This document shows, piece by piece, positions 6,991 through 52,377 of a stretch of DNA of 64,000 bases (position 1 is its first letter; the number at the start of each line of letters is the position of its first letter). The notes below the pieces were generated by a model, which was given only the letters and a program-made list of their open reading frames with translations, was not told the DNA's origin and did no database searches. Both the position numbers and the translations under genes were made by a program. Source of the stretch: Marchantia polymorpha subsp. ruderalis (Eukaryota; Streptophyta; Marchantiopsida; Marchantiales; Marchantiaceae); contig AP031353.1 of NCBI GenBank assembly GCA_037833965.1, positions 5,830,501-5,894,500 of the forward strand. Reading direction: 5' to 3'.

Positions 6991-7592
6991 ATGTCGATGA
7001 AGAAGCTTGAAGGTTCACGGTTTGAGGTGGAAAAATTTGATGGACAAAATGACTATGTCTAATGGCAGCGACAAGTCATTAGTGTACTTGGTGCCATGGA
7101 TTTGAGCAAAATGCTTAAGCCACAACCTAATGATGTAGATGATAATTACCGGAATGACATCCAATATCACCTGGCGAGCATTGTGATATTCTATCCCAAG
7201 ATAAATGTCTTCAAGCAAATGACGATGACGCCAACGGTTCCAAATTTGTTTGCAACATTGCGAGAGAAATACCACAAAAAGGAGGTTTAAATTGCTTGTA
7301 CATACTTTTGAAGCTTATTAACTTCAAGTTGGCGGAAGATACTAAAATCCAAGACTATGTAGATGACTTCAATAATTTGTTTGTGGATCTTGAAAACCTT
7401 GAAGAAGATTTTACTAATGAACGAGATGCAATTTAGTTGCTAAGTTTTGTGCCTATCTCTTATTAGTCCTTGTCACGAGTGCCTTGCTTCACCATGACAG
7501 GCAAATCATCACTCTCAATGAAGTTGTAATTGCTTTATTGAGCTATTCATTCTGGGAATGACTTCTGGGAATGACTTCTAGGAATCCCTTCT
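6991..7592 (+). pseudogene. Copia-2 gag, N-terminal part, broken
   Basis: This encodes the capsid-like Gag start of a Ty1-copia element. The chosen ATG at 6991 opens MSMKKLEGSRFEVEKFDG, followed by a WQRQV block after an in-frame stop at about 7060; FxxxKFDGxN...WQ is typical of plant Copia Gag (DUF4219/UBN2 type). Further on, 7300-7530 reads LAEDTKIQDYVDDFNNLF and a degenerate LLSFVPxSY block, again typical of UBN2. The frame carries several stops and ends in a 13-bp tandem repeat at the insert junction. Gag resumes at 12232 with the region just before the zinc knuckle, so the insert splits one ancestral gene. The leader between primer site and gag (5890-6990) is unusually long and shows no recognisable coding. 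Confidence 0.8.
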
Positions 7593-7601
7593 GGGAATGA
7601 C
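7550..7601. repeat. Four 13-bp tandem repeats at insert junction
   Basis: Four units of TTCTGGGAATGAC (the third reads TTCTAGGAATCCC) run at 7550-7562, 7563-7575, 7576-7588 and 7589-7601. The last unit runs directly into the inverted copy A, whose first bases GGGAATGAC are also the second part of the unit. The array therefore sits exactly on a rearrangement breakpoint. Confidence 0.85.
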
Positions 7602-10660: not shown

Positions 10661-12231
10661 GTAGTCTAGTTAGATACTGAGCAGTTTGGTCTTACACCTT
10701 CGAGTGATTGTTCTTGTTTGTACTCCTTCAAGATTTTTCCCCCTTGAATGCCAAAGTGAAGTTTTGTTACTTCGAGTAAACCTTGGTTGTCAATTCAGGT
10801 TGTACGCTGCTTGAGGCGCCTTCGGGGAATGACTAGTGCTTGAGAATTCAAACTCGTCAATAGAATGTTAAGTTGTGACACTTGATCTTTTCTCAATCGA
10901 GTTTCTCAGTTTGGATTCCTGTATTCTCTGCGCGTTTTGTGAGTTGAGTGTGTTGTTCACCGCGTGTGAGTGACTTCGGTTTGACGAAAGTACCGCATCC
11001 GAAGTAGGAAGTCCAACCCGGATGCTCTGCACTAGCAGTCAGAGTTAACAATTCGGAGTTGGGGAACACAACCTGCAGATCCTCTTAGTGTACTCTTGAG
11101 AAACTTTCCCCCTAAACCTTAAGTGGAGGTCTTAACCGACCTCTGAGTTGTGTTTTTATAATTTCAGGTGTGTGTTGGAGTGAACTACGCTGCACTGTGT
11201 GTCCTCCGAGTGACCTCCGAGTTGAGCACTTGTAGTATTTCTGGGAGTGACAGTCGCCTGAGAATTCAAACTCTTCAATAGTCTGTTAAAACGTGACATT
11301 TAGTACTCTGTGTGTTGCCTGTGTCCCTGTGGGTTCGACCTTTTTGCTGCTATACTGCAGTTTTAGCCTTTGATAGGTTATTACACTCTTGTCGCGCATT
11401 TAGATGTCAAGCTCGCAACTCTTTCTGCAACCTTCGCAGTTACTTCCTCACATTCTCTCTTCATCTCTTCGGTTGTCTTCATTGCCGCCGCTTGCTTAAT
11501 GTGAGTACTATTCCTGATCAACTCTACATAGAATCCTGCCTCCTTTGAGATTGCGTACTTCCCTCTCTTCCTATCTAAGTACTTCAACAAGGGAACATTG
11601 CTATTCTGTAGGAAGTCCAGAAATGCAACTACCAACTCTTGCGGCTCTTCCTCCAAAGATCTCATCTCTACTTCGGGTCCTACCACTCCCTCAGTTGCTT
11701 GAGGCGAGGGAATCTTGGAGGATTTCACCACCGTCCCATCAATTTGCGCTACCACCTAATCCAATATCTCTTCGCTCGGAGTAAGCTCCTTTGCATACTC
11801 TTCGCTCGTCTTCGGTTCTAGCATATCTTCCTTCTCTGAAATCTCATTCCTCTCCGAAGATGGCTGCCTCCTCCCCAAAGACAGAAGATCTTGACTTGTC
11901 GTCGCCGTACTCTCCTCTGAAGGTTTCACTTCTTCCTCTTTCGGATCCTCACTCTGCACTTCTGAAGGTCTTGCTCCTTTAGTTAAGAGTAGTTCTCCAT
12001 GCGTTAAGAGTTCCATCCCTCGATAGAAATGCACCAAGAAGGTTGTCATGTGAATGATCGAACCTCCCTTCGATCTATTACTAACGTTGATTCAAACCAA
12101 GTCGTACAAGATCTTCGCCTAGTGAATTGCTTTTCCCCTCAACGCGCGTTCGATAAATCCTACTTGCCATGCTGTGACATGTGTTGTTCGTTGCGGCCGT
12201 AAGATGGATATCACTGCTGTCGCTACCGCAC
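10661..12231 (-). repeat. Inverted copy B of 16830-18400
   Basis: This 1,571-bp block is the reverse complement of 16830-18400; position y corresponds to 29061-y. It starts with GTAGTCTAGTTAG, part of the 3' flank of element F, includes a complete L unit (10888-11385), and ends at CGCTACCGCAC inside the coiled-coil ORF. It also overlaps copy A in content (about 1.4 kb), giving what looks like a tandem repeat 3,232 bp apart. Private substitutions separate A, B and the source, for example GTTGGAGTGAAC only in B. Confidence 0.92.
11381..12049 (-). pseudogene. Coiled-coil ORF element, copy B (3' part)
   Basis: This minus-strand remnant in inverted copy B carries the FLVHFYRGMELLT start with the acidic linker (11756-12049) and the YLDRKRGKYA...YVELIRNSTHIK coiled-coil segment (11381-11755). 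The two frames are separated by one stop, exactly as in the source copy. The 5' half of the gene is missing because copy B ends at 12231. Confidence 0.6.
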
Positions 12232-15200
12232 ATAATGGTGTTTTTATATCCATCTTTTGGTCAATCCACCTCATCGTCTACTACCTTGACAGTCTTTTGT
12301 GGTAGGACTCATACTAGGTAGAAAGAAATTGGAAAGGTCAAGATGAAATCTGGATCTATATATAAGTCTAAAGATGATAAGAACATCAAGTCTTGGAAAC
12401 GTGGCAAATATGGTCACATTTGCAAAGATTGTCGTAGTAAGACAACCGGTGAACCCTCGGCAAGCATGGCTGTAACTGAGGATTTCAACTATGCTTTTTA
12501 TTTTTCTTTCCATGTTGAAAAAAATGAATGGATTTTGGATTTAGCTTGCTCTTACCACATTTGTCACGTTAAGGAGTTTTTCAAATCTTACACTCTGTCA
12601 ACCGGTTCAATTTCTATTGGAAGTGATTAGACCTGCAAAAATGTCTGCACTGGATTTGTGAAGATGCAGATGTTTGATATTGGGTGTTTTGTATCTTGAT
12701 CAACGTACGGCACATCCCTTATATATGTAAGAACTTAATCTCACTTGGAAACTAGACTTGAAAGGGCTTAAGTGAAGCACTGACTGTGAAATGTTGAGTG
12801 TGATGTATGGTTCTTACATTGTCATGAGGAGCTCAAGACTGAAAATCTATACATCTTGGAGGATCCAACGATCTTTGGAGAGGCACATGTTACTACTTTC
12901 CGGATTTGATTTCTCATCTGTGGCATAATCGATGTGATCTCATGAATGAAAGGGATTTGATCATTTTACACAAAGAGTTTATTGCCCAAAATAAAGCAAT
13001 GCAAGCTCAAATTTTGTGAGCACTGTGTATTTGGCAAACATACAATAGCTGCATTTGGCGTTGATGCGCATAGCTCAAGGCATATTTTCAATTACATTCA
13101 TTTTGATCTGTAGAAAACTTTTCCTACTCCCTCATACTCTGCAAAGATATATTACGTGATCTTTGTGGATGAATATTTGTGTTGATTTACTTCATGCAAC
13201 AAAAGTTTGAGTTCTTTGAAATTCTCAAAAACTGGAAAATCTTAGTTGAGACCTAGATCATAAAGAAGGAGAGATTTTGCGCACAGATAACATCGGGAAA
13301 TACAACTTAATGGAGTTTCAATTGTATTGCATAAGAGAGTTGATCACTTGCCATCTCTCCACATTGTATATTTTGGAGCAAAATGATATGTTTGAGAAAC
13401 TCAATTGCACACTCTTGGAGCACTCTTGAAGTATGTTGAGTCTTGCTGGTTTACCTCATACGTTTTGGGCTTAAGCTGTGAATCTCGCAACTTACTTGGT
13501 AAACTAAGTAAACCTAATAGCTTTATCAAGTTCAAGACACTGTTTGATTTGTGGTACAAACGGTTAGATGATCACTCTATGTTGAGAGTTTTTGGTTGTG
13601 ATGCTTATGCTCTTACTTCAAGGAATAATAAGACTAAGCTTGAGCCTAAAGCCAAGATCAAGGTTGTGGGATGTCAATGCTTGCAAACTCATTATCAATA
13701 AAGATTTTTCAATCAATGAATCCAAATTATTGAATGAGGAGGAGAAAGTGCAGACTTCCGTTACTAACAATAACAAGACTTTTGACCTTGACACCGTTGA
13801 GGAACAAATTGTTATTGACATCACTAATGATGGATCATAAGGAAAGATTTCACTTTTTGTAGAACAAGAGAACTTTATTGCTAATGAGCCAGCACCAGAA
13901 TCATTATCATCATATATTGAATAAGCGGAATCTTCATCAAGGCAACATTCACAAAGTGCGGCTGAACGTTAAGCTTTGACTAGGTATGACACTTGGTTTG
14001 ACTCTTTAGTTATTGATGATATTGAAGCTGCTACTAAGGATTCATGTGACGCCTTAATCACGGAAGATTGGGATTCATCTTCTTTCCATGAAGCTCTAAT
14101 TTTTAGTGAGAAGCAAGAATGAAATGCAGCAATGCAAAAGTAGATGAAATCACTTCTTGCCAACAACACTTGGAAACTCGTTGAGTTGAACCAAGGAGAA
14201 ATAATGGTAGATTGTAAGTGGATTTACAAGAAGAAGAATGGATACATATGAAAAAATTTTCAAGGCTAGATTGGTAGCCAAGGGATTCACACAATGCAAA
14301 GATGGAGATTACAATGAAGTTTTTGCATTAGTATCAAAGTACTAAAAAATATGTGTGATATGTGTACTTGTGATTGTACATGATCTAGCTTTTGATCAGA
14401 TGAATGTTGTCATAGCATTTTTTTATTCAATACTTGATGTAGTGATATTCATGAGGCAACTCCAAGATCTTCTCATGAAAGAAAAGGAAGGCATGGTATA
14501 CAAGTTGTTTAAATCTTTACATCTTTACATCTTTACATTTTTAAAGTAAAGTCCTAAACAATGAGATAAACGCTTCAACAACTTCATGTACTCACAAGGT
14601 TTCATAATGAGTACATATGATCCTTGTGTTTACTTGAAGAAGGTTTTTGATGCGACATTTTAGCTCATCATTCTTGTCTTGTATGTTGATGACATGCTTA
14701 TTGCTGCTCAAGAAGATTTGATGTTGATGAGTAGAAGTCTAAGTTGAGTTCAACCTTCAACGTGAAGAATCTAGTTCTTTTCAAACAAATTCTTGATTTG
14801 AAGGTATTTTGGTATTAGAAAGCAGTAAAGCTTTGATTATCTCTATAGAAGTATGCATAGAAGTTGCTTGCCAAGTTCAGCAGAGCGGAAGCTAAACCTG
14901 TGAATACTTCATTGGCTACTCATTTTTTATTTTTAGTAGCTCAATGTACTACAGATGCGGATGAGAAAAGCTTAATGTCTTCTATTTTCTATGAAAGTGC
15001 AGTAGATAGTCTCATGTATTTGATGGTGTGCACATGATCGGATGTAGCTTTTGTTGTAGGTAAGGTGAGCAGGTACATGTCAAATCTAGACAAGATGCAT
15101 TGAAAAGAAGTGAAGTGTATACTTAGATAATTTAAGAATTCTATAAAACATGCCTTATTGTTTGATGTCAAAGCAATGAAAGCCAGGTCAATTTTGGATT

Positions 15201-15651
15201 ACGTGGATGTTGATCATGAGAAGACTTGGACAAGAAGAAATCAACAATAATATATGTTTTTACTCTTACATATGGTTGCATTAGTTGGAGATCTATTCTT
15301 AAAAAATGCATCTCTTTGTTATCTATGGAAGTTGAATGTGTTGTAGCAGCGGAGGCAACAAAGAAATCAATCTGGTTGAACAAGCTTATCACTCATATGA
15401 GATTGCCTTAGCGTGATGTCAATCTTCATTGTGATAGTCAAAGTGCGCTTCATATTGCTGAAAATCAGGTGATAAATAGTAGGGTGAAGCACATTGACAT
15501 CGGATATCACTTTATCATGCATGTTGTCTGTGAACGCGCTTAAACTCATCAAGATTGATGGAAAGCTTAATCCGGCTGATGGCTTTACCAAGGTGATTCC
15601 TTCCGATAAGTTTTCAAAACACCGTGCAACTTTGCAGATTTTGCAGCATTG
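12232..15651 (+). pseudogene. Copia-2 gag-pol: zinc knuckle, PR, IN, RT, RNase H
   Basis: This is the remainder of the Copia-2 polyprotein with domains in canonical Ty1-copia order but many stops and frameshifts. The Gag zinc knuckle near 12392-12432 reads WKRGKYGHICKDC, with the first Cys of CX2CX4HX4C lost. The protease block WILDLACSYHIC at about 12529 has Leu where DS(A/G)C is usual. The integrase zinc region starts with LWHNRCDLMNE at 12919 and continues KLKFCEHCVFGKH, then NYIHFDL near 13100. The linker spans 13700-14200. RT has VDCKWIYKKKN near 14205 and YVDDMLI at 14681-14701. RNase H reads DKKKSTIIYVFTLTYGCISW at 15229. The C-terminus has CDSQSALHIAENQV and a degenerate NPADGFTK. The order IN before RT separates Copia from Gypsy. 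Confidence 0.88.
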
Positions 15652-15736
15652 ATTTAAATTACATGATAATTTCTATGTATCTAGTTTTTCTCTAACATGT
15701 TGTCAATTACAATTTAATTGAAGTAAATCCTTGTTC

Positions 15737-16038
15737 ATAGGGGAAAAGCTAAAGGTTAATTTTACTTTTTAAAACTTTTCGCTGAAAGTATATATGGATC
15801 ATAAAAACGGTCTCCTCTAAGATTTGAGTTGAGGAGGAGTTTGTAAACTTCATTCTCATCTTGTTAATCATAGTTAGTTTAAACCTAGTTAGGCTTGGAT
15901 TCTAATCAGAGTCTGGAATACTTAATTTGAGAACAAGCACAATATTGTTTCAGTCTCACATGTACACAACATTGGAGAGATAGTGGATAAATTGGCTATG
16001 AAGGCGTGATGTACATTCTCGCTTTAGTGAAGCTTTGT
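15737..16038 (+). repeat. Copia-2 polypurine tract and truncated 3' LTR
   Basis: ATAGGGGAAAAG at 15737-15748 is the polypurine tract, 86 bp after the polyprotein end. The following ~290 bp align with the 5' LTR until GAAGCTTTGTGG near 16038, where similarity stops. The 5' LTR continues another ~115 bp (to 5875) in its own copy, so this LTR lacks its 3' third. An unrelated AT-rich stretch with TTCGGCCGAAG motifs (16041-16250) leads to the next element. Confidence 0.7.
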
Positions 16039-16252
16039 GGTGCACATTTTTTTTAATTTTTGCATAAAAAAGTAAATTTGAAACGTATCGGCTGTAGATT
16101 ATATACATATAATTTTATAGTTGTAGAAGTTAGGAGATATAATGAAGATTAGGTAACCAGTAGTACGAAGATGAAATCTGCCTTCGGCCGAAGACCTTCG
16201 GATCTTTGGCGCAAACATTTTTGGCAATGAAATAGTTGGGCCTTCGGCAAAG

Positions 16253-17680
16253 ATGACTTGTCACAATTTGAATTTGCCAGAGGCCGGACAAGAACTTCTC
16301 GCACTGCAAGTGTCAATTCGCGTGCGTGTGAAGAGCGTTAGGGCGTCAAGGTTAAGAGCACGAAGCGGGCACTTCGCGTCGACATTGTGTGAGAGAGAGA
16401 TTTGCAATCGAAAGCATCGAGGCATACACGGTAGGAGACTTGACGCAGCCTAAGAAACTCGCTGTGCCGAAGTTGGTTTCACTCAGGGTGCATGAGGTCA
16501 AATTACGGAAGTATCGACAAGAGTTTATCGCGACGCGCCTGGATTTTCTGCTATGGGACTAGAATTGTGTATCGGCAACAATATGCCAGGAAATTATGGA
16601 CAAGAATCGGCTCAAGAGCACTGACCTCCAAACAATTCGATGCTTTGGACGCTCAAACATTGGACCCGCATCTTAAGTCCATGCGCGGGCAAGGACGGTG
16701 ATTATACATTAGAGAAGGAGAGTGTGAAGTTGACGCAAGCCGAAGAGTTTACCTTAGTGCCACTCTTCCAAAACCGGCAATAAAGCACAAACGGATGGCG
16801 AACAGTGGAGTATTGCGACCCGAAGAGACGTGCGGTAGCGACAGCAGTGATATCCATCTTACGGCCGCAACGAACAACACATGTCACAGCATGGCAAGTA
16901 GGATTTATCGAACGCGCGTTGAGGGGAAAAGCAATTCATTGGGCGAAGATCTTGTAAGACTTGGTTTGAATCAACGTTAGTAATAGATCGAAGGGAGGTT
17001 CGATCATTCACATGACAACCTTCTTGGTGCATTTCTATCGAGGGATGGAACTCTTAACGCATGGAGAACTACTCTTAACTAAAGGAGCAAGACCTTCAGA
17101 AGTGCAGAGTGAGGATCCGAAAGAGGAAGAAGTGAAACCTTCAGAGGAGAGTACGGCGACGACAAGTCAAGATCTTCTGTCTTTGGGGAGGAGGCAGCCA
17201 TCTTCGGAGAGGAATGAGATTTCAGAGAAGGAAGATATGCTAGAACCGAAGACGAGCGAAGAGTATGCAAAGGAGCTTACTCCGAGCGAAGAGATATTGG
17301 ATTAGGTGGTAGCGCAAATTGATGGGACGATGGTGAAATCCTCCAAGATTCCCTCGCCTCAAGCAACTGAGGGAGTGGTAGGACCCGAAGTAGAGATGAG
17401 ATCTTTGGAGGAAGAGCCGCAAGAGTTGGTAGTTGCATTTCTGGACTTCCTACAGAATAGCAATGTTCCCTTGTTGAAGTACTTAGATAGGAAGAGAGGG
17501 AAGTACGCAATCTCAAAGGAGGCAGGATTCTATGTAGAGTTGATCAGGAATAGTACTCACATTAAGCAAGCGGCGGCAATGAAGACAACCGAAGAGATGA
17601 AGAGAGAATGTGAGGAAGTAACTGCGAAGGTTGCAGAAAGAGTTGCGAGCTTGACATCTAAATGCGCGACAAGAGTGTAA
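16253..17680 (+). pseudogene. Coiled-coil ORF element C, frame-broken and truncated
   Basis: Function unknown. Pieces in order across several frames: a basic N-terminal segment (16253-16453); ARKLWTRIGSRALT (16492-16701); a conserved module at about 16690-16980, readable as KESVKLTQAEEFTL, then PQRTTHVTAWQVGFIERAL and IHWAKIL; FLVHFYRGMELLT opening an acidic linker (17012-17305); and a predicted coiled coil (17306-17680) with LLKYLDRKRGKYA and YVELIRNSTHIK. Elements F, D and E have the same module order, so this is a dispersed family. The coding sequence is cut after LTSKCATR by the minus-strand L unit, whose terminal TGTAATAAC supplies the TAA stop. I recall such proteins from Marchantia predictions, but this was not searched. 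No RT, integrase or protease motif is present, suggesting a non-autonomous element. Confidence 0.65.
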
Positions 17681-18173
17681 TAACCTATCAAAGGCTAAAA
17701 CTGCAGTATAGCAGCAAAAAGGTCGAACCCACAGGGACACAGGCAACACACAGAGTACTAAATGTCACGTTTTAACAGACTATTGAAGAGTTTGAATTCT
17801 CAGGCGACTGTCACTCCCAGAAATACTACAAGTGCTCAACTCGGAGGTCACTCGGAGGACACACAGTGCAGCGTAGTTCACCCCAACACACACCTGAAAT
17901 TATAAAAACACAACTCAGAGGTCGGTTAAGACCTCCACTTAAGGTTTAGGGGGAAAGTTTCTCAAGAGTACACTAAGAGGATCTGCAGGTTGTGTTCCCC
18001 AACTCCGAATTGTTAACTCTGACTGCTAGTGCAGAGCATCCGGGTTGGACTTCCTACTTCGGATGCGGTACTTTCGTCAAACCGAAGTCACTCACACGGG
18101 GTGAACAACACACTCAACTCACAAAACGCGCAGAGAATACAGGAATCCAAACTGAGAAACTCGATTGAGAAAA
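17676..18173 (-). repeat. L unit (3' terminal repeat), copy in C
   Basis: This is a ~0.5-kb unit with a sharp end: on this plus strand it begins TGTAATAAC immediately after truncated coding sequence. On its own strand (minus) it reads TCTCTGCGCG, a CCCCCT(A/T) motif, TTTCAGGTGTG, TGAGAATTCAAACTC, ACGTGACA, then ends TTACA. The same ordered blocks occur downstream of D (to 23192) and E (to 52921). TG...CA termini and the GTGACA-plus-TTxGTACTC block are LTR-like, so it may be the LTR of the coiled-coil element family. Here it lies antisense to the ORF it cuts. Confidence 0.6.
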
Positions 18174-18625
18174 GATCAAGTGTCACAACTTAACATTCTA
18201 TTGACGAGTTTGAATTCTCAAGCACTAGTCATTCCCCGAAGGCGCCTCAAGCAGCGTACAACCTGAATTGACAACCAAGGTTTACTCGAAGTAACAAAAC
18301 TTCACTTTGGCATTCAAGGGGGAAAAATCTTGAAGGAGTACAAACAAGAACAATCACTCGAAGGTGTAAGACCAAACTGCTCAGTATCTAACTAGACTAC
18401 GCTAGCTTAGAGCATTCGGCCGAAGGCCTTCAGCTACAAAATGCAATAACTTCGTCAAGCTGTAGCTCGTCTTGCGCGGTGACAGAACTAAGGACACAAA
18501 CGCGCAGAGAAAATGAGTTCCTGAACTACACTTCCAAAATTGGGAAATCCTCAAGGCAAGACGCCTTGAACTACTTTATACAATCTAAAATCCTAACTAA
18601 CTAACACTCCACTCTACGCTACAAG
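18174..18625 (-). repeat. 3' flank / partial L unit of element F
   Basis: Read on the minus strand from 18625, this has TATAAAGTAGTTCAAGG, a 7-bp stem-loop (18551-18569), TTCTCTGCGCGTTTG, CACCGCGCAAGACG, TTTTTCCCCCTTGAATG, TGAGAATTCAAACTC and GTGACACTTGATC. The order matches the L units of D and E, but it stops at GTGACACTTGAT and jumps straight into the start region of the next L unit at about 18173. It is a diverged L copy missing its last ~110 bp. Confidence 0.6.
18551..18569 (-). other. Conserved 3' stem-loop, F copy
   Basis: TCAAGGC and GCCTTGA form a 7-bp perfect stem with a 5-nt loop. The equivalent positions in D (22655-22672) and E (52409-52426) also form a stem; the outer pair is C-G in D, T-A here and T-G in E. 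See the finding on covariation. Confidence 0.6.
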
Positions 18626-20896: not shown

Positions 20897-22626
20897 GTTG
20901 ATTCAGGAAGAGTACAACTGTTATTTGTCTCTGTTCTTGATCAACTTCTATAGGGGTATGGGACTATTGACTCCTGAAGAGATTGAAGTCTTTCCATCAC
21001 GAGCAGTACCACGGGAAGGAGAAGAAGTGATGTTGGCTAACGAGGTCAACTCGGACCTTGAGGGCGATCCGCGGTACTCACTCCATTAAAGAAGAAAGCG
21101 GTCTCGAGGCCGGCAAGACTCACAGCCGAGGAAGAAACAAAGAATCGATGAGGCCGCTGTAGCAGAGGACCGGTTACGACGTGTGGCTCCCATTGAGATG
21201 CGGGACAGGTCAAAAATGAAGGCCATGAGGTTGATTCAGGAAGACGATAGTAGCACGGAGAGTAGGAGGGCTGCGTCAAGAGGTCATCATGTGAACGAAG
21301 TAGGGCCAGCGATGATGGCAGCCAGAGGGAAGGAGAAATCGGTGAGGGAGAAGCCCCGAGTTATAGAAGAACGGTCAACGCCTGTTAAGCCACAACGGGC
21401 TTCAAAGAAAGACAATGGGAAGGCGGTCTTGATTGAGGAAGTTCTCTTGAGGCAGAATGAGGTTCCTTCGGAGGGCATCCGAATGAAGGTTCCTCGGGAA
21501 CGGGCCTTTGAGGTACTGACGATGTCATAAGATACTAAAGATGACCATGTGGCATGAGAGGAAGTTGCGGCGAAGGCCGTAGAAGACGTAGCAGCAGCCG
21601 AGAGTGGTCCGCATAAGGTAGTTTCACCCCGGACCTCCAGTGATACCGTCATACTAGAGACGGGTGAGGAATCCTCAGCGGAAGAGACATAGTCGCCAGT
21701 CCTTGATGCCGCCGACATGTTGAGTGTGCAGGTACTTCTATTGCTCCAATACCTCGACCGGAAGCGGGAGAAGTATGCAGACGGCTGCATCAATGAGTCC
21801 TACGTGGAGATAGTGCGTAACCGGACACGGACCAAGGTATTGGTGGCGGCTGAGGTCGCCGCAAAGGAACGTAAGAGTCAGCCAACAGAAGCAAGCTACC
21901 AAGCACTTCGGAAGAGGCTAGTTGAGGAAGTTGAGAAGCGAATACAATCGGAGCAAGTCGGCGAGGGTCTACGAGAGGACGTGGAGAGAGCCAACTGCGC
22001 AAGTGTGGACCTCTTGAGCAAGCCGGAGGCATGTAGGACCGCGTACGACGCCGAGTCATTGAAGGTGGATAAGTTGTCAATTGCCGCGAAGAAGAAGGAG
22101 CAAGAGTACCAAATCGAGTTGGCGGTGAGGGCAAAGAAGCTAATCGAGTACGAATCTGCGCAGATCTCGGACCTAGAGCTGATCGAGAAGCTAGAGGCGC
22201 AGTGCGGCGAACTAAGGACGCAACGGTTGCAAGCTGAGGAGAAGTTATGCGAGGTGGAAGCAAAATTGACGGAGGCCGAGTGGAAGAATCGGGAGTTATA
22301 AGAGGAGACTCGTCATGTCTTAATTGCGAGAGTGGAGCGGTGTTTGCGCGGGTATGTTTTGTGGCAGATCAAATCACAACGGACTTCGGTTACGCGAGAT
22401 TGAGCATCGTATAGCCGAGTTGATAGCGCGAAGCGGACGGAGTCATCGCAAGTTATCCAAGAAGCTCGAATTGTATCTTGCGAGATCGCGGGACGCGGTA
22501 GCGAATCAAGAGTTAGAATTAGTAGGCGTTTTGAGAAGATTAGATTTAGAGCGGAGGTTAGAGGCAGCGGCAACTGCCGACTCCGCAAGAGTAGGACCTG
22601 TTTGGTGCTCGCATCGCAGCGGGTGA
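20897..22626 (+). pseudogene. Coiled-coil ORF element D, 5'-truncated
   Basis: Starts inside the family module: FLINFYRGMGLLTPEEIE opens a linker frame (to 21089), a basic linker follows (21183-21530), then a long uninterrupted coiled-coil frame 21717-22301 of about 190 residues with LLLLQYLDRKREKYA, SYVEIVRNRTRTK, heptad-rich KRLVEEVEKR and the run SDLELIEKLEAQCGELR. After one stop comes the C-terminal module with CLRGYVLWQI (22324 on) and a shifted frame equivalent to FLARSRDAVANLE. The N-terminal half (WxxVLxRCAG to IHWAW) is absent because the element begins abruptly next to F at about 20893. The coiled-coil frame is the longest clean frame of the family here. Function unknown; probably inactive. 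Confidence 0.65.
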
Positions 22627-24745: not shown

Positions 24746-26766
24746 AATATTGATAGGTTACATCCCCCTTACTGCGTACACACCCCCCCCCCCCTCCGCG
24801 CGACGAAAAACAAAAAAATGCGACACTTTGCAACTAGCAGCGAACTCATGGGCTTATTTTTGCGCTAGATCCTTTGCGTGCACATTTTTCCAGAGGAACT
24901 TAACTGTCTTGCGCTGACCCATGTGCTTGCACAGGATTGTGCGTCAGTGTCACAAGCTCAAAAGCACTTGAATCACTGCGTGTTGAGTTGTTGGCTTTGA
25001 TGCGCTTCCTCAGAGATTCTTTTAGATGTCCATGCCCTTGTTTAATGTGAATTGGATCTTGCACAAGTTCTAAAGGTTGTTTTTGTGAAAGCCAAACAAA
25101 TGTGGCGTGTAGGATTCGCTACTAGTGCGGTGAAAGCTGATCATGGCAACCTTGAATTTGCTGGAACGTCTCCAAAAGCTACAATAATGGTTTGTTCTCA
25201 ATGCCCTCCACATCCAACAGTATCAACAGCTGAATCTCATATGGCTTGTCAAGCCACCAATCAACAAAAAAGTTCGCCATTGAGACCCTTTTCGTTGATG
25301 CTAAAATGTCACAGATACGATTAGCACACGGTAGGCCCATTATTTTGATAAACACATTGGCACATTGAATAGCAATGTTTTCAAATTGTCATGCCTTCTG
25401 CAGTTGATCCTCGACAAGCTTTACTGCATGGTGTGAGACTTTCCGGCATAGATCTTCCCAAATATCAGTATATTGTGAGACCAGCGTATTTGCACGATCA
25501 TAGGCAATTTGAAGCCAGATCACAGTCTCCTGTTGAGAGACTGACAACATGATAGATATCGGTAAGATCGTCAGACGAATCAGTGATTCATGTTTTCAAG
25601 GCGTCGTGCTTGCCCTCGGCGTGGAAAGTGACAATGTTATCATATGACAATGATCTTTTGTTCAGGCAAGAATAAACAGCTCCTTGTGAGGAAGCCAGGT
25701 TGCGTAAATGTTATTGCATGCCTGTTGTTAATGCTTGGCGAGCATAGTTGTCCAATTGGCGTTGAACGACTCGATATCAGCTGATTCACACAATTGGAAA
25801 AACTCAAGCTCAAATTTCTCCGATTCCTCCAACCCTAAATACTTTTGGCATCTAGCAAGCACATTCTTCTGGATGTGCCAGACACAGAAGATTATGAACA
25901 CCCGGAAATGTTACGCGAATGGCCAACATTAACGCCAATTTGCGATCCGTCACAATGACCCCGTGACGTTGTTCCCCTGCAAAAATGCCGGCAAATTGCT
26001 CCAGCGTCCAGATGTAATCGGCTTTGACCTCGGATGAAAGAAAGAAAATGGCAACAGAATACAATTCGTTGGTAGATGACATGCCGACAATGTGAAATAT
26101 TGGCATTTTGAACCTGTTTGACTTGTATGTGCAATATATGTGCATCATATGCGAAAACTCATTGGCAAACTTGACACATTGATGTGAAGCAAAGAAGAGG
26201 CGCGTTACGTGGCCTCCGTTGTTCCGATCATGGGCATGACAAATATTCTTTGTGTGGAGCTCATCAAGGAGCATTTTGATGGGAGTTTTTCCGGCCAATA
26301 CTTCATTATGAATTGTTGCTTTGGCTTTGTAAAAGTCTCGTGAAATGAGGACGCAGGAAGAATCGTTTTGGCAGATGGAAGCCAAAATCACTTTTGGTGA
26401 TGCCTCTGCTTTTGACAATGTGTGGATGCTTGCCTTCTGAAGGGCGTTCAGCTTTTGAGCAGTTGGATAGGCGGAAAGGTTGCCAACAACGTTGTGATTC
26501 TTGTGCTCCCCTTGCACAACAGAAACACGCCATTCGTAGAGCACATCGACGGCTGGCGCTATTACTTCACAACATTGTAGTGTCACTGAGAATGGACAAC
26601 CAGAGATTCTGGAAGAGCACTTGCGCTTGCAATTGTCATCTGTGAGGTCCTTGCGCTTGTTCTTGTACTCGTCATCGTGTGCACATGCAAGCAAGACTTT
26701 GCGTGTATTGCCGGTCTTGCTCTTCTTAGAGCGAGCGCGGGTGGGGGTGTGTACCTATCAATTCTC
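24746..26766 (-). mobile_element. Mutator-like element relic with candidate inverted termini
   Basis: The transposase pseudogene is flanked by an imperfect inverted repeat: the left side has TTGATAGGT followed by ACATCCCCC (24750-24768), and the right side read in reverse has TTGATAGGTACACACCCCC (about 26744-26762). A second GTACACACCCCC run at 24776 suggests a duplicated left end. I found no matching 9-11-bp target duplication, so the termini are tentative. The 12-C run at the left end is a possible assembly trouble spot. Confidence 0.5.
25040..26760 (-). pseudogene. MULE/FAR1-type transposase pseudogene
   Basis: This encoded a Mutator-like transposase, which cuts and inserts DNA in the nucleus. 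Reading on minus from 26760: a basic start with SKKSKTGNTRK; a Cys-rich segment with RKCSSRISGCPFSV, like the FAR1-type DNA-binding domain; a MULE catalytic core with NEFSHMMHIYCTYKSN, FHIVGMSSTNELYSVAIFF and VIVTDRKLALM. The frame is open from 26694 to about 25890. It then needs a one-base shift to continue as WHIQKNVLARCQKYLG and ADIESFNANWTTMLAKH, and later shifts give a SWIM-like GLPCANRICDIL near 25320. The HIxKNxxAxCxKxF block after the core is diagnostic of MULE transposases. Full-length relatives are usually 600-800 residues, so most of the gene is present but dead. Confidence 0.82.
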
Positions 26767-31845: not shown

Positions 31846-34230
31846 GATCGTTGAAGCGTTTCGCCTTTCTCCATTATGAGAGTGATTCCATTTTTACTTG
31901 CCGCTCAAATCAAATCTGCTTTATTGCTGATTTTTACGACCGATGCTGCAGAACTGTCAAGATGAAATGAACCTCGCAAGCTGCATTCATTTCTTTGCAG
32001 TTCCTAGTACTGCAAATTGCTTAAATTGGCAAGTACCTACCTAGGATACTTGCTCTCGACACTGTCTGGACATACTGCTACCAATAGCAAATGAACCTGC
32101 TGTTAGGATTGCCTTAAAAGGAGATTTTAAGTCCAAACTTCAAGGATGCAAAGCTTTTAAATCAACGAGGTTGACTACTGTGACTCAGTCGTACCAAAGT
32201 AACTGGTACGGAAGTGAGTGTGGAGCTCTCCCCAGGACTGGTCTTCTTTTCTGAGGGCGTTGGAGTCTTTGCAAAGCTCACCATTTGTGGTAGATCTTGA
32301 AAGTATCGTGCGGTAGGGGTTTTCAACTCGTGTATCCACTATACCTCTCAAAATCACTGCCAGTTGCTTCATGTTGGATGCCTTCAGATATAATCCCTTC
32401 ACTGTTCTTTGAATTTCACTGATTTCAAGTGTGCTCGATGAACATAAACTGTGTGTGTGTGTCATTCTAGTTGTGTCTTACAAAATTGAAACTAGCTCAA
32501 ATGAGAGCAATGAAGAAAAACCCAAGGCTGCTTCAAACTAATTATTTCATGGCGTGGGTTCGACTGACAAGTTTATGAAGAGTGTGTCAGAGACCGAGAG
32601 ATTGTAACACCTGAAATGCCGATGTTAAACTTCCTCGACAACAATGAAGTAAACTCGCTCATCGGCTTTCGATTCACATTCCTCGTCATCCTCTCGGGAG
32701 TTTGATCCAAATTCAAGGGTTTAAATTTTGAATCTTCGTGTATTTTCAGCTCGTTTTTTACGTTCACCGTTGTGAAACAGTCTCGAAATAGAGATAATCG
32801 AACGGTCAAACAAATTTTGGCCTCCCGGTTACGAATATAGATCATTGCAACATGCAGTTGCTTCTCAAAGAGTATATGTAGTGAAGAGATCATTTTTTTT
32901 CTCCGAGGTATGATTAAATTTCTCCTTTTTTCCCATTTGCAGATGAATTGTAACTTATCAATTATTCTTCAATTTGTTTCTTGTTGATATTCAAGCTTTA
33001 TTTTTATTTTCTTCATTTTCTTCATCACTATTAACAAGTATAGTTTTTTCTCAATTATTTATGCGTGTTTAATATGTACTTTATTTTTAGATTCTATCTT
33101 TTCCCACTTCTCTCCCTTTTCCTATTCTATAATTTTTTTTACCAAAGTAATATTACAAACGATAATATTTTCTTCGTTTGCATGCTGGATAAACTGTTCA
33201 AGAAATTGGTTTGACCACGGAGATTTTCTCAATACATCTTTACGACCTCCTCTTTAGAAGCGGTGACGAAGAAAATGTACCCTCTCCTTTGGAATGTACA
33301 GCGTACAGCAATCCGAAGTGAACACTAGTCCTGCACAACGGTGCATGAATTTTGAGGCATAGACAGTCGTGCATACAACCGTTACATATTTTTGAGGATG
33401 AAGGTAGTATAATGACTCATGTGTTTCAATTCATAAGTTCAATTTCGAAAGATTTACAGTTGGCCTACACTTCTATCCAACGACAATTGCTGTATGAGCT
33501 AATGCCCAACCTGCATTCGTTGTATTCAGCTCATAGCCAACCTAAGGTCACATCAAGCGGACGTACAAGGCCAGTCGGTAGGAAAAGCCTGAGTTCTACA
33601 ATTGAGTACTATGACGTCGTTCCTCTCATCTTCAAAGTACGCGCCTGTGAAAAGAGATGCACTCCCCGCTTAAAGCCAGATTTGATCGAGATACAGCCGT
33701 TTGGGAGCGGTAACGCTGAGAAAGGTCGTTACAAGTGCATGTAACAAAGACCTGCAGCTGCATACCAAGCGGCTCGTGACTACGGAAAGTTAATTCACTG
33801 AGAGTACTCAGATTGTACGACCACCGGGAAACCGCTGTACCTGTGACAATGGCAATCTTCGCATCGCCTTCGTTTCCTATCCACATGGGACAATTGGTCA
33901 CTCCTCTTCAGACTTGCCATCTGCATTCAGGTATGCAACACAGATCTGTGCAGGTGACACTACATCAGGGCAGAAGTCCAAAAAGAAAACACTCGTACTT
34001 CTACCATTTCCAAGGAATTAAATCAAAGCGCACACCTCGATTTGTGGTAGTAGTGTCAGGTGCAAGCCTTGCGCTCATGCGGTTTACTGACCGAGTTCTA
34101 CAAACCTTCCAAATGCACGAATTTCAGTGCTATATTACGAAGTTAATCTCATGATGTTGGTACAATGAGAGACGCCTCCAGTCTCCAATCGTTGGTGTGA
34201 GATGGAAATCTCAAGAAACTTTACATAAAA

Positions 34231-34338
34231 GGCGGCAGTCGAAGAGAGAGGGTACAGCCCGTGTGTCGACTGATGTCATGCGCACAAGGGAGAGCCACAA
34301 GTGACAAGGGGCTGTACTCTCTCTCTTCTGCTGCCATC
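34231..34338 (-). ncRNA. MIR529: MIR529 hairpin 1 (miR529, UACAGCCC form)
   Basis: Read on the minus strand, the 5' arm at 34329-34309 is a 21-nt sequence that begins AGAAGAGAGAGAG and ends ACAGCCC with U at position 14, matching miR529 as known from grasses and mosses. The 3' arm (34258-34238) begins GCUGUACCCUCUCUC, matching the known miR529-3p. The arms 34234-34260 and 34309-34335 pair over 27 nt with only three non-Watson-Crick positions, across a 48-nt loop, as expected for a plant pre-miRNA. miR529, related to miR156, guides AGO1 cleavage of SBP-box (SPL) transcripts that control developmental and reproductive phase change. Hairpin 2 lies 90 nt upstream on the same strand. The SPL target itself is not in the window. 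Confidence 0.9.
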
Positions 34339-34422
34339 ATTCATGTGCGTACGCGATGAACTATTCTGCTGTCTATCGTCACAGATCAAGCAGCTGCTGG
34401 AACCGAGCAGAAGATCACGGAT

Positions 34423-34512
34423 GCCGGCAGTGGAAGAGAGAGGGCACAGCCAAGCAGGACCAGTCAGTGGTCGTGAACACAGGGCTGTGCTCTCTCTCTT
34501 CTTCTTCCACCA
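34423..34512 (-). ncRNA. MIR529: MIR529 hairpin 2 (miR529, CACAGCCC form)
   Basis: On the minus strand the 5' arm at 34502-34482 is a 21-mer beginning AGAAGAGAGAGAG and ending ACAGCCC, identical to hairpin 1 except for C at position 14. The 3' arm (34450-34430) begins GCUGUGCCCUCUCUC: the star strand carries the compensating change (UGUG for UGUA), so pairing is kept. The loop is about 30 nt. Flanking bases (GAATGGTGGAAGAAG here, GAATGATGGCAGCAG in hairpin 1) show the two hairpins arose by tandem duplication. This hairpin is first in the direction of transcription. The compensating change between arms is strong evidence for a selected hairpin, not chance GA/CT repeat sequence. Confidence 0.9.
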
Positions 34513-35056
34513 TTCGTAAATATGTCTTCGGGTCGTTGCAGTCGATGGGGTGTAACAGACATGCATCAGCCGTGGTAATTGAGATCGCAGTAGCAACACG
34601 GGCAACCTGATCGTTCTGCGTGATCAAATCGCTGCGTGGTGCAATGATGGTGCAACTGTAAAACGACAAGACTACAATGGGATGAATCAGATACAGCAGC
34701 GGAAGAGCCTCAATGACGGGAGAGTAGCGGCAGGATGACCAGGTCGACGGGGACAATTCGTGGATGAGAAAGATGAGGTGAGGTGAGGTGAGACTACTTT
34801 TAAGCTCGGGAGGGAGCTTGAGCATGAGAAGGATGAGTGAAGAAGATAGATGGGGAGCTGAGGGAGCTGGCAAGTACACCACCTCAGATGAAACGACAGG
34901 CATCGCTATTACGTCAACCAGAGATGACTGCTGACTGCAGAGACGCTTGGTATCATCATCCTCTCGAAATGTGCGAGCAGACGTAGGGAGGGAGGGACCA
35001 CACTATCAGATTGAAGACGCAGATTGAGTCGGTATGGTATGGGGAGCGAGAGTGGA

Positions 35057-35063
35057 TTTTATA
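35057..35063 (-). promoter_or_regulatory. TATA box of putative pri-MIR529 promoter
   Basis: TATAAAA on the minus strand in a G+C-rich context (CTGCCTATAAAATCCACTC), about 555 bp upstream of hairpin 2. A transcription start about 30 bp downstream, near 35030, is predicted. Orientation and distance suit a plant pri-miRNA gene. No transcript evidence is available here. Confidence 0.5.
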
Positions 35064-35199
35064 GGCAGGACGAGCGCTTAACAGAAGAATAGAGCAACCG
35101 AGAAGTGGGCGTGCGGGGCCGTCCCTTGCGGCGGCGTGTGTGCCATATTGCAGCAAACGCCAGCTCTCGCTTCTGCACTCCATATATCTCTCTGCTCCG

Positions 35200-36310
35200 A
35201 GCTCAGCTGCTTCCCGATCATCCCTCCCATTTGCCCGGCACTGGCACAGTATTCACATAAATCGTGATGATGATCACCCTCGTGTTATCTCCGTCTCTTT
35301 CCTTCCAACTTCCCTTCCTTCCATCATCCCTCCCTACCCTTCATCTCTTTCACATCTGCATATTTCCTTCCATTTCCTAAGCTCCTCTCTCTAACACACC
35401 ATCACAGTCAGTCAGTCCGTCTCTCTCTCTCTCTCTCTCCCTCTCTCTCTCTCTCCCCCTCCCTCGCTCGGTCGCTCCCTCTCTTCTCGCACGAGTCTTC
35501 CTCTTTCACCCTCTTTTCGTCTTTAAGATCTTATCATTTCTCCTGTGCTTGGAAAGAGGAGTTGAGGAGGAGGCAGGCAGCAGGCTGGGCGGGGCGGGGC
35601 TGAGCAGTCAGACCAGTACTTCCTTTTTTCCTTCCTTCTGAGAGTCAGTAGTAATCGGAGGAGTACCGGAGTGCTGCTGCAACCGTAGCTTCACTCCAGC
35701 CAGCAGCCCTCCCCCGAGGGCTCAGGGAAGGCGAGACCCGGCCCAGAACCCAACCCGAACAGACAGACAGACAGACTAGACTTACTTCTTCTCTGAGTCT
35801 CTTCCTTCGTTCTGTTCTGCTCTGTTCGGGGGCCTGGCTTGGGGGGCTGGGCTGGGCTGGAGCCCTGGACCGACTGGCGTTTTTTTCTAGTCTGGGGGGC
35901 TGGGCTGGGCTGGGCTGCTGCCTCTGCTCGAGTGGGCATGGCTGTCACGTCGAGAAGGACGGCCAGGCTGCTCTCGAGCGAGTGATAGAGAGATACTTTG
36001 ACGCGATAGCGAAGGAAGAAAAAGAGGTAGTTTAGGAAGCGAGTCATGCAATATAGGCCGACAGCCATAATCTCTCGCTTCCTCGAGCTTTCATGCACCT
36101 GCCTGGATTAACTCTACAAATACTGCCCTTCACATTAATAAAATATTTCCTAAATTCTCTCCCCTTTCTCTGTCGGGCTCCCCCCTTCTCTCACTCTCTC
36201 GCTCTCACTCTCGTCTCTCTTTTTCTGAGTCTGGGAGGAGTGATGATGAGCTGGGCGTGCCCAGATCCGAGGTGAGGTAAGGTAAGGTAAGGTGAGGTGA
36301 GCTCCTATCT
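35200..36310. promoter_or_regulatory. CT/GA-rich and G-rich upstream region
   Basis: Upstream of the TATA box on the minus strand lies about 1.1 kb of biased sequence: long CT runs at 35418-35462 (GA on the transcribed strand, the type bound by plant BPC/GAGA factors), G-rich tandem motifs at 35838-35914 and GGTGAGGTAAGGTAAGGT repeats at 36270-36300. It looks like a promoter or pyrimidine-rich 5' UTR. It could serve the minus-strand miRNA gene, a plus-strand transcript, or both. ORFs through it are low-complexity Pro/Ser/Arg translations and I do not accept them as genes. Confidence 0.45.
35841..35914 (+). other. Two G-quadruplex-forming motifs
   Basis: GGGGGGCTGGGCTGGGCTGG at 35841-35860, and at 35894-35914 a run of six G followed by three CTGGG units. 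The second fits the G3+N1-7 rule four times. They lie about 0.8 kb upstream of the predicted pri-MIR529 start, on the opposite strand. Confidence 0.7.
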
Positions 36311-48356: not shown

Positions 48357-50400
48357 ATGGGGACATCAATCGATGTGGGTGAGGATCTCAATGCAATCAT
48401 GGCGGAGATGAAGGAGTTGAGAAAAGCAATAGTAGATGGTCATACCAAGTAGCAATTTATGGAAGATAAAATCTTTACATTGGATAGTGAGAAAGTAGAG
48501 AGAGAGAGTTGGAGAGATGGAAGTTGAACCTCAAGTTCAAGCTTCCCAAGTTCAGCGAGAACCAACTCCTATTGATGCAGTAGAGGCAAATAGGAGACGT
48601 CTTCAAGAGATTGAAGATCAAGCAAATCTTTTGCTTCGAATGGAAAAATTCTGTAACGTGGAAGCTTACAAAGAGAGTAGAGCAATGGGAGTGTTAGAAG
48701 TATGGATTATGAGAATGAATATTTATTTATCTCATTTTTATGTTTCTGATTATATTGCATGAATGTTCATGAAATTTTATCTTATGGATAAGGCTCTCAC
48801 ATGGTACACAACATGGGAGAGAATGCTTTCAAAATGGGGTGCTACCATTTCGTGGAATGGAATGCATGAAGTACTTCTGCAACATTTTCAAGCGGTGGAT
48901 TCTCTTCAAACTGCAAGGATGAAGTTGTGGGATCTAAAGCAGAAAGGAGGTATTCATGAGTACATTGAAGAATTTTGTGATCTTCAAGTATTTATCATGA
49001 ATATGAGTGGAGCAGAAGCCTTGGACGTGTTCAAACGAGGCTTGAAGGATCGAATTCGAAAGGAGGTGATAGTAAGCAATCCATCTACTGTGAATGAAGC
49101 AATCGCAATTGCTCAACAAATTTCGGGTGCTTTTGGTGTCACACACGGTGAACCAGTAAGCAATTTTTGAAATCTATCTGGTCCAATACCGATGGAGTTG
49201 GGAAACCTTCGACGTAGAGAAGGTTTTGCACCAATCAGAGGACCACCACCAAGATTTGGAGGTGAGATTCGGCAACCAAGAGTTCTAAATTTGCAAGAAG
49301 GTTGTGTAAATAACGGAATGGTTCAAAGAGGAGCTAGAGTTCGTGACAATCGTCAATGCTATGCATGTGCACAAATGGGTCACATTGCCAAGTTTTGTCG
49401 AATTCGGCCGACAGTCCAAGGAAGACGGCCCATGCAGCGACGACCGTTCAACAACATGGAGGGGATAGAGTATGAAGAGGTGGAGGAAGAAGTTTTGGGA
49501 AACGAAGATCACCAGTAAACTTGCCTCGCGGCCTTAGTGGTTCTACAAAGCGAAGAAAAGGCGAGGTTGGAAGAAGGCAATGGTTGGAAGCTCATGGAAG
49601 GAGTAAGAAGCAAGCTCAACTCATTGTCACTGATGGTTTGATAGAAGCACACAAGGTGAGAGTTTTAATTGATCCTGGAGCAACTGAGAATATTCTATCA
49701 ATGAGTGTTGCCATGAAGTTAGGATTGATGTTGATGAAGGACGTAAGTGGTGAACATCGGTGGGAACATGTCACCTTGGATCTTGTATGTGAGTTACCAA
49801 GGACTTTGTTATGACATGATTCAATGGTGGTTTTTGTGGAAAAATTGAGCAAGATGATTTACATCAGGCCAACCACAAAAACAGTAACGGCTCCATAACT
49901 AGCTCAATTGTATCTAGATGCAGTTTTTGTGAATCATGGCTTAAGCAAAGTGTTAATCACGGATATATGTACTCACTTCACTAGTTTATTTTGGAAAACT
50001 TTGTTTAGTTTTTTCAAAACAAAACAAGCAATGTCAACGGCCTATCACCCTCAAACTGATGTACAAACGGAGAGGGCAAATAGAACCATAGAGGATATGC
50101 TACGAGCATTCACATTAGAAGATCAAGAAGAGTGGAACAACCTTTTGCCACTTGTGGAATTTGCATATAACAATTCTGTTAATGCATCCACAAAAGTATC
50201 TCCATTTTTTCTTATGTATGGAGCTCATCCTATAACTCCTTCAAGTTTGATGAGACTTCCCAAAGGAGACGAGTTTTTGATCAAAGTTGCATCAGTCAAC
50301 GAATTTGTGGAGCATATTCACCGAGGACTACATCAAGCCAAGGAGAAGTTGGTGATAGCTCAAAATTGGCAAAAGTAGCATGCTGATGTTCATTGTAGAG
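48357..50400 (+). pseudogene. Gypsy gag-pol with RT/RNase H deleted
   Basis: Ty3-gypsy polyprotein gene, inactive. ATG at 48357 opens a frame with early stops. Gag (retrotransposon gag domain) runs 48517-49170 and shows FYLMDKALTWYTTWERM and WDLKQKGGIHEYIEEFCDL. A zinc knuckle CYACAQMGHIAKFC (intact CX2CX4HX4C) lies near 49357-49398. An aspartic protease block reads LIDPGATENILSMSVAMKLG (about 49665-49725), with DPG in place of D(S/T)G. After about 49743 the sequence continues directly as integrase: HRWEHVTLDLVCELPRT, then HGLSKVLITD, FTSLFWKTLF and YHPQTDVQTERANRTIEDML (49908-50378). RT and RNase H, about 1.5 kb in a complete element, are missing. The order with IN after PR/RT identifies Gypsy rather than Copia. 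Confidence 0.88.
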
Positions 50401-50608: not shown

Positions 50609-52377
50609 GCATCTTCTGGACTGCTACTTGGCAACACATTGGGCTAGTTCCAGGAGGATCAGCGAATTACTTGTCCCCGTTGTTGATTATTTCTATAGGG
50701 GTATGGGGTTGTTAACAGTTGAAGAGAGGCGAGAATTCCCGATGGAAACTCATGCGCAGGAAGGAGAGGCGGTTTATGAGTGCTAACGGGACAATACGGA
50801 TCCAGCGAACGAGCAGATTAGCTCGCATCCGCAGAGAATAGAACGATCCATGGGTAGACAGTAATCACAACCACGGAAGAGAAGGAGTACTCAAGAGGTC
50901 GCTATGTTTAAAAATCGTGTATGTCGGACAGCTCCCATCAAGTTGAGATCACCCAATTTTTGGGCTAGGTCGAAGATGAAAGCAAGGCGATTGATACTAG
51001 AAGCAAACAGCAGTTGGAAAGTAGGGCTTCTGCGTCGCAAGGGCGTTTCACTCTAGAAGCAGAGTTGAATATGGTGAGAGAGAAGTAAGCACTGGTGGAA
51101 AAGTACCTTCGGACTTCTGCGGTTAGCTCTACGGCCGTAATGTCAAGCCGGGCTACGAGGAAAGAGAAAAGTAAAGCTATCATGACAAAGGAAGTACCTC
51201 CGGTACGAGATAAGGTTTCTTCAGCGGATATTAGGATGAAGGCCCCTTTGGAGAGGCCAGTTGAAGTGTTGGCAGTATCATCAGACACTAAGGAAGACTC
51301 TATGGCCGTGGAGAAAGTTGCTGAGAGGGTTGTAGAAGATGTAGTATGAGAAGCGTTTGCACCAAAGAAGGTGGTGTCACCACGGACGTCCACCGGGACA
51401 GTCACATTGGAGCCGGGCAAAGATCTTTCGGCGGAAGAGACATAGTTGCAAGTACTAAGTGCCGTTGACGTTCTGTGTGGGTTGGTGCTTCCGCTTCTAC
51501 AGTATCTCAACCCCAAGCGTGGAAAGTATGCAGAAACTACCACCAACGAATCTTACGTGGAGCTAGTGCGTAATAGGATGCAGGCAAAGGTGGCAGCGAC
51601 TTCCGTAGCTGCAGCAAAGGAACGGCAGACCCAGGAGACAGAGGCGAAGTATGAGGTACTTCGGAAAAGATTGGTCGAGGAAGTCGAAAAGTGGAGGTAT
51701 TCGGAAAAGACATGTGAAGGTTTTCGTGAGGATATTGAGAATGTCAAGTGTGTGACAGTAGATCTCCGGAGGCTGGAGGCATCTCGGATCGCCTATAACG
51801 CCAAATCGCGAAGGTTTGATGAATTGACGGTAGCATCGGAGAAGAAGGAACATGAGCATGCAGCAGAGCTGGCAGAGAAGATGAAAGATCAGGCAGAGTG
51901 TGAAGCAGCTAGGATCTCGGACTTGGAATTGATAGAAAAGCTGGAGTCTCAATGCAGTGAGTTGAGATCTCAACGGACGCAAGCCGAGGAGCAGTTATGT
52001 GATATAGAGATGAGATTGTCGCAGGCAAAGAGAAGAACCGACAGCTAGCAGAGCAGACGAATGACGCCTTGACTGTGAGGGTGAACCAGTGTCTGCGAGG
52101 GTTTTTATTATGGCACGTCGAGACGCATAAATGGTTGCAGTTACGAGATCTTGAGCGCCGTGCGACTACAATGATAGCGAGTAGTGTTAGTGGGCAGCGC
52201 CGGTTAGCCCAGAAGTTAAAAGCATTTCTTACAAGTTTGCGCGACGTGGTGTTGAACTTGGAGTTGGAACTAGCGGCTGTTTTGCAAAGGTTAGGTTTAG
52301 ATTGGAATTTGGACGAGAAAGCAACCGTCGACTCCGCGGATGTAGGACCTATTTGGAGCTCGCATCAGAGCGAGTGA
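50609..52377 (+). pseudogene. Coiled-coil ORF element E, C-terminal part
   Basis: Continues E after the Gypsy insertion: an RIFW-like start, then a frame with FYRGMGLLTVEERREFP (about 50690-50740) that opens the linker; a Ser/Lys-rich linker (51095-51349); a long coiled-coil frame 51446-52048 (about 200 residues) with LLQYLNPKRGKYA, SYVELVRNRMQAK, KRLVEEVEKWR and SDLELIEKLESQCSELRSQR; then the C-terminal module at 52069-52377 with VRVNQCLRGFLLWHVETHK and FLTSLRDVVLNLELELAAVL ending at a TGA/TAG cluster. The order equals D and F. Frames are cleaner than in C. Function unknown; heptads suggest oligomerisation. Confidence 0.65.

Follow-up and report, generated by a model that had tools for sequence, protein, structure and literature searches.

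In Marchantia polymorpha, miR529c and its target MpSPL2 are known as a brake on the reproductive transition (PMC9516144, PMC10841014, PMC10721683): both miR529c null mutants and plants with a miRNA-resistant MpSPL2 turn reproductive without far-red light (PMC10721683, PMC9516144). Three members of the family, miR529a-c, have been reported in this species (PMC9516144), MpMIR529c being Mapoly0006s0020, and small-RNA counts have been given for a/b and for c by PMC10841014, which writes 'a/b' as one entity and calls MIR529a/b functionally unexamined. The published target carries a miR156/529 site, and the available text of these accounts contains no mention of hairpins lying side by side (PMC9516144, PMC10841014, PMC6174852, PMC10721683). 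Such an arrangement is described for the moss Physcomitrium patens, in which three tandem MIR529 pairs are found among seven genes, each pair less than 100 nt apart (PMC4409300, 'data not shown'). In rice, tandem precursors of the sister family that targets SPL genes are known as well, MIR156b/c and MIR156h/j (PMC4409300). M. polymorpha itself has a polycistronic locus, Mpo-MIR390/Mpo-MIR11676, with two hairpins in one transcript; it is the one polycistronic locus in a list of 24 hairpins in which, as far as it is available, MIR529 is not seen (PMC9291395). In the liverwort Pellia, no polycistronic miRNA locus was found (PMC4368373).

Here, we analysed a stretch of 64,000 nucleotides of M. polymorpha subsp. 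ruderalis (the window; contig AP031353.1, positions 5,830,501 to 5,894,500), and we describe two adjacent MIR529 hairpins, A and B, together with a third one, C, beyond its end. Published sequences of M. polymorpha agree with the genome: a 24-nt MpPRR promoter primer of Tak-1 is found in it without mismatch and yields an amplicon of 2975 bp (2974 bp published), and 20 nt of the MpTOC guide are likewise identical (PMC10673691), in keeping with the liverwort-like genome of the first-pass annotation. The three hairpins thus equal the reported members miR529a/b/c in number, in the same species, and their SPL2-type target resembles the published one. The moss pairs, as they are described, are alike in arrangement, except that the pair studied here belongs to a liverwort. 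The rice precursors are miR156 in an angiosperm, whereas the present pair is miR529; and Mpo-MIR390/Mpo-MIR11676 joins unrelated miRNAs, whereas A and B are two copies of one family. The first-pass annotation had suggested that a polycistronic MIR529 arrangement in a liverwort-like genome may not have been described. In view of the moss tandem pairs (PMC4409300) and of miR529a-c in M. polymorpha (PMC9516144, PMC10841014) this was overstated, and the microRNAs of A and B are not new, since miR529a-c have already been reported from small-RNA reads of this species. No description of a side-by-side MIR529 layout in a liverwort was found in searches of the open-licence PubMed Central literature, and the paired layout seems to be little noted in liverworts. 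Where the precursors lie can nevertheless probably be gathered from tables of the primary Marchantia miRNA papers.

Positions of the MIR529 hairpins and associated features (window coordinates unless marked C4)
Feature	Position	Strand	Remarks
MIR529 hairpin A with lower stem	34405..34530	(-)	first in the direction of transcription; fold and Rfam RF00908
Mature miR529 of hairpin A, AGAAGAGAGAGAGCACAGCCC	34482..34502	(-)	5' arm; read from the window
Predicted star strand (miR529-3p) of hairpin A	34430..34450	(-)	from 2-nt 3' overhang geometry
Spacer between the hairpins as cut here	34351..34404	(-)	54 nt; no TATA box
MIR529 hairpin B with lower stem	34215..34350	(-)	second in the direction of transcription; fold and Rfam RF00908
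Mature miR529 of hairpin B, AGAAGAGAGAGAGUACAGCCC	34309..34329	(-)	5' arm; read from the window
Predicted star strand (miR529-3p) of hairpin B	34238..34258	(-)	from 2-nt 3' overhang geometry
Candidate TATA box, TATAAAA	35057..35063	(-)	about 0.55 kb upstream of mature A
MIR529 hairpin C	C4:5898680-5898765; window-equivalent about 68180-68262	(-)	outside the window; same strand as the pair

The two hairpins have the geometry of microRNA precursors. Their mature sequences differ by a single base at position 14, and in the folds each duplex, drawn with 2-nt 3' overhangs, leaves two positions per strand unpaired. The span from mature to star strand is 73 nt in A and 92 nt in B, well within a foldback length of less than 300 nt, and below the duplex a further 18 (A) or 14 (B) bases of the 5' side are paired; this long lower stem would suit base-to-loop cutting. 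Both folds are far more stable than expected from composition: hairpin A (126 nt) has a minimum free energy of -57.3 kcal/mol (shuffle mean -34.3, z -6.2) and hairpin B (136 nt) one of -62.1 kcal/mol (shuffle mean -35.3, z -7.1), and in neither case was any of 1000 dinucleotide shuffles as good. For the whole 341-nt stretch z is -5.6 and none of 100 shuffles was as good. It counts against this reading that the antisense strand is the more stable one in folding for A, B and C alike. The first-pass annotation had proposed tandem MIR529 fold-backs on the minus strand and named their folding as a check; both lie at the place and on the strand it gave, the folding bears them out, and the star strands that it had placed by position were reproduced exactly from the folds. 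Its spacing of 90 nt is only approximate: the mature sequences are 173 nt apart, the star of A lies 100 nt from the mature sequence of B, and 66 nt separate the two Rfam matches. Closely spaced and on the same strand, A and B are placed as the hairpins of a polycistronic MIR gene would be.

The family assignment rests on several observations. Rfam searches were judged by E-value, since a scan of the whole window at gathering level matched no family. At E ≤0.1, all eight matches in the window fall inside A or B; the best four belong to RF00908 (MIR529) and the remainder to the sister families MIR156 and MIR535. Among 4227 Rfam families, RF00908 ranks first for each hairpin and matches it end to end, B at 34223-34346 (-) (56.3 bits, whole-window E 1.3e-10) and A at 34413-34519 (-) (47.8 bits, whole-window E 4.3e-8), both scores being below the gathering score of 75. 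The antisense strands of A and B reach 46.4 bits each (E 1.1e-7 for the whole window), so that the antisense of A scores nearly as high as the sense strand. When the whole genome was searched with RF00908, the three matches at E ≤0.1 (B minus, A minus and A plus) all fell in the pair, 42 of 31,661 first-look candidates having been scored; the MIR156 model gave a single match, hairpin A with an E-value of 0.017 (59 of 15,630 candidates scored). Lack of a UGAC start tells miR529 from miR156 (UGAC/CGAC rule; PMC8541648), and the sequences found here begin with AGAAG. Mature A is identical over all 21 nucleotides to a sequenced fern miRNA, pmi-miR529_v1, and the 21-mer of hairpin C is identical to pmi-miR529_v3 from the same source (PMC5426797); the first 20 letters of mature B are printed in other plant miRNA papers. 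Both hairpins carry the 21-nt miR529 on the 5' arm, as expected of a plant MIR529, with A equal to the fern miR529 and B departing from it at position 14. The MIR529 identity claimed initially is thus upheld by the mature sequence, the hairpin geometry and a matching SPL target, with RF00908 the best Rfam model though below its gathering score: A and B are real, correctly located and named, and ordinary in kind.

The 20-mer pattern AGAAGAGAGAGAGYACAGCC, with Y at position 14, occurs three times in the 241,466,482 bases (9 contigs) of the genome, once each in A, B and C, and the reversed pattern does not occur. In hairpin C it lies on the 5' arm at C4:5898743-5898762 (-), 33.7 kb from A; A and C have the identical 20-mer, from which B differs, and are distinguished from each other by the final base of the 21-mer (C or U). 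Hairpin C folds with -55.2 kcal/mol (z -3.3, one of 1000 shuffles as good) and matches RF00908 with 32.4 bits, below the gathering score (E 5.6e-6 in a search of 241 bases); it is absent from the whole-genome search with this model at E ≤0.1, in which, as mentioned, only a part of the candidates was scored. With up to two mismatches, the 19-base miR529 core is found at 49 places in the genome as compared to 25 for the reversed control, and of the 30 examined as loci, six are the two arms each of A, B and C. A second apparent tandem pair, two GA-rich near-core matches separated by 300 bp (L008 and L032; C4:5300225 and C4:5300525), was rejected because it does not fold. A and B are therefore two members of a three-hairpin MIR529 family that lies within 34 kb of one chromosome.

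A search of the genome with the SBP model resulted in eight exon matches (150 of 165 candidates scored) that make up four SBP/SPL loci, and four is also the number of SPL genes given for M. polymorpha (PMC10721683). One of them, at C2:10260624-10261655 (-), has a miR529 site at C2:10258758-10258778 (-). In our own ungapped scoring scheme (mismatch 1, G:U pair 0.5, both doubled at positions 2-13) this site scores 3 for A and C and 3.5 for B, mature B having one more G:U pair with it than mature A; pairing is perfect over miRNA positions 2-16, and mismatches are present only at positions 17, 18 and 21. The site is located downstream of the SBP exons and is read in frame as RALSLLS in an open frame of 308 amino acids, thus containing the ALSLLS stretch that marks targets of this family. 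A protein search with the SPL2-type exon gave three distant hits, the best at 51% identity. In 8-kb stretches around the other three SBP loci, the best ungapped score on either strand was 8.0 or worse. A neighbouring SBP locus is found 17 kb from the one that bears the target site, and this fits the consecutive gene numbers of MpSPL2 (Mapoly0014s0223) and MpSPL1 (Mapoly0014s0224) (PMC6174852). Very probably, the miRNAs of A and B hold in check a single SPL gene that sets off sexual reproduction.

Comparison of the hairpins with each other bears on the age of the duplication and on whether both copies are functional. The similarity of A and B is confined to the arms (39 nt at 85% and 27 nt at 93%), and their loops are of unequal length and cannot be aligned. 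In an alignment of A, B and C, 33 pairs form a shared stem with 90.9% of the 99 cells being standard pairs, and five of the 33 pairs are changed on both sides. Shuffles gave a mean of 1.9 such double changes (3 of 500 reached five), and slid partners gave none or one; the test leans towards the structure and does not go further because only three sequences are involved and the structure was derived from the same three. One of the compensated changes, C-G to U-A, is inside the duplex at mature position 14, the base that separates B from A and C. This pattern is consistent with an old duplication whose stem has been maintained by selection. It also bears on the idea that one hairpin is a decaying duplicate, transcribed and yielding little or no functional miRNA. 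Decay of tandem duplicates is frequent, B pairs slightly less well with the SPL site owing to its extra G:U pair, and the abundances of miR529a/b and miR529c differ in published libraries (PMC10841014); even so, we regard decay as unlikely, since both hairpins have retained both arms although the loops can no longer be aligned, both duplexes keep the same two unpaired positions per strand, and the change at position 14 is matched on the opposite arm. Far less probable still, and in our view hardly credible, is that the hairpins are an inverted repeat, a transposon derivative or a chance GA/CT fold that would give rise to siRNAs rather than miRNAs. There are transposon genes nearby and the region abounds in GA/CT tracts; against this stand the family match to RF00908, the compensated stem changes and the finding that the 451-nt stretch around the pair matches only itself in the genome (in a search that skips simple repeats). 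Likewise, 24 of the 30 near-core loci that were folded (of 49) gave no compact hairpin, the other six being the arms of A, B and C; among the 24, L015 and L031 pair 17 and 18 bases in branched folds with partners 150-200 nt away.

How the two hairpins are transcribed is judged from promoter words in the DNA. From 36000 down to 34350 the minus strand has no TATAWAW word other than the candidate TATA box; the spacer between the hairpins contains none, and neither do the 1500 nt upstream of hairpin C. With one TATA box ahead of the pair and no other in the spacer, a putative bicistronic transcript is favoured. The argument is weak because a word of this kind turns up at least once in about 14% of base-shuffled versions of 34530-35600 and because C has none upstream. 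A bacterial-type promoter scan and a tRNA scan gave nothing of use. Two real MIR529 genes that are transcribed separately from starts of their own would be in line with hairpin C, which at its distance shows that a single MIR529 hairpin can stand alone, and with the low share of polycistronic transcription units in M. polymorpha (1 of 23 of known structure; PMC9291395). We think this rather improbable, given the short distance between the hairpins as cut here, the position of the only TATA box ahead of both, and the report that about one quarter of the miRNAs of the moss P. patens are polycistronic (PMC9291395, PMC4368373). The explanation that we hold to be strongly favoured is that A and B are a genuine MIR529 tandem pair of M. 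polymorpha, most likely made as one transcript, that represses an SPL2-type mRNA. In this bicistronic model, RNA polymerase II would start about 30 nt past the TATA box, and a single minus-strand transcript would run through both hairpins. A Dicer-like enzyme would then release two nearly identical 21-nt miR529 molecules from the 5' arms, presumably cutting from base to loop and with both hairpins contributing equally. Both miRNAs are predicted to bind the SPL2-type mRNA at its ALSLLS-coding site and to cause its cleavage, and the thallus would thereby stay vegetative.

Further features of the window were noted. A long GA/CT tract at 35420-35488 precedes the candidate TATA box by about 0.4 kb. 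Direct copies lie at 7587-8999 and 10819-12231 (99.3% identical), and the element recurs in inverted orientation at 15169-18400 (99.4-99.6%). This has the look of a recent element of LTR type, lacking recognised genes, and of a second insertion; three open reading frames of this element had no Pfam match. On the first-pass statement that the pair is the only clearly functional unit here, the Pfam comparison bears in part: it covered 16 of the 49 stop-to-stop frames of at least 110 amino acids in the window, as unspliced frames only. Pieces of a Ty3-type retrotransposon are found at 48763-50378 (+): gag is present, and matches to a zinc knuckle and an aspartyl protease fall below the curated cut-off; the frame at 49899-50378, which we take to be integrase-like from its appearance, had no Pfam match. 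A MULE transposase domain (E 3.1e-17) is encoded in an open frame at 25852-26754 (-). The open frames at 21693-22301 and 51446-52048 (+), each about 200 amino acids long, are related to one another, have a coiled-coil look and share an ESYVE.VRNR stretch, and no Pfam match above cut-off was obtained for them.

The miR529-SPL2 module sets the timing of the switch from vegetative to sexual growth in Marchantia, and the useful part of our analysis is the layout of a pair plus a single hairpin, which bears on the naming of MIR529c and on its mutants. It is tempting to speculate that the paired layout goes back to the common ancestor of mosses and liverworts and acts as one dosage unit, and that MpMIR529c is hairpin B of the bicistron, a doubtful proposal for which we see a small chance. 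We infer the equation of hairpin B with miR529c solely from two facts, that 'a/b' is written as one entity and that A and C have the same 20-mer and B does not. If the proposal is true, a joint transcript that yields a miR529a/b as well may be disturbed in the published Mpmir529c mutants, which would explain why losing one locus suffices for reproduction despite abundant a and b. Set beside the moss pairs, A and B would let one ask whether a microRNA bicistron has persisted since the divergence of mosses and liverworts. If two of the three MIR529 hairpins indeed share a transcript, a mutant in a single hairpin would have to be read with its neighbour in mind, and MIR529a/b would become testable jointly with c.
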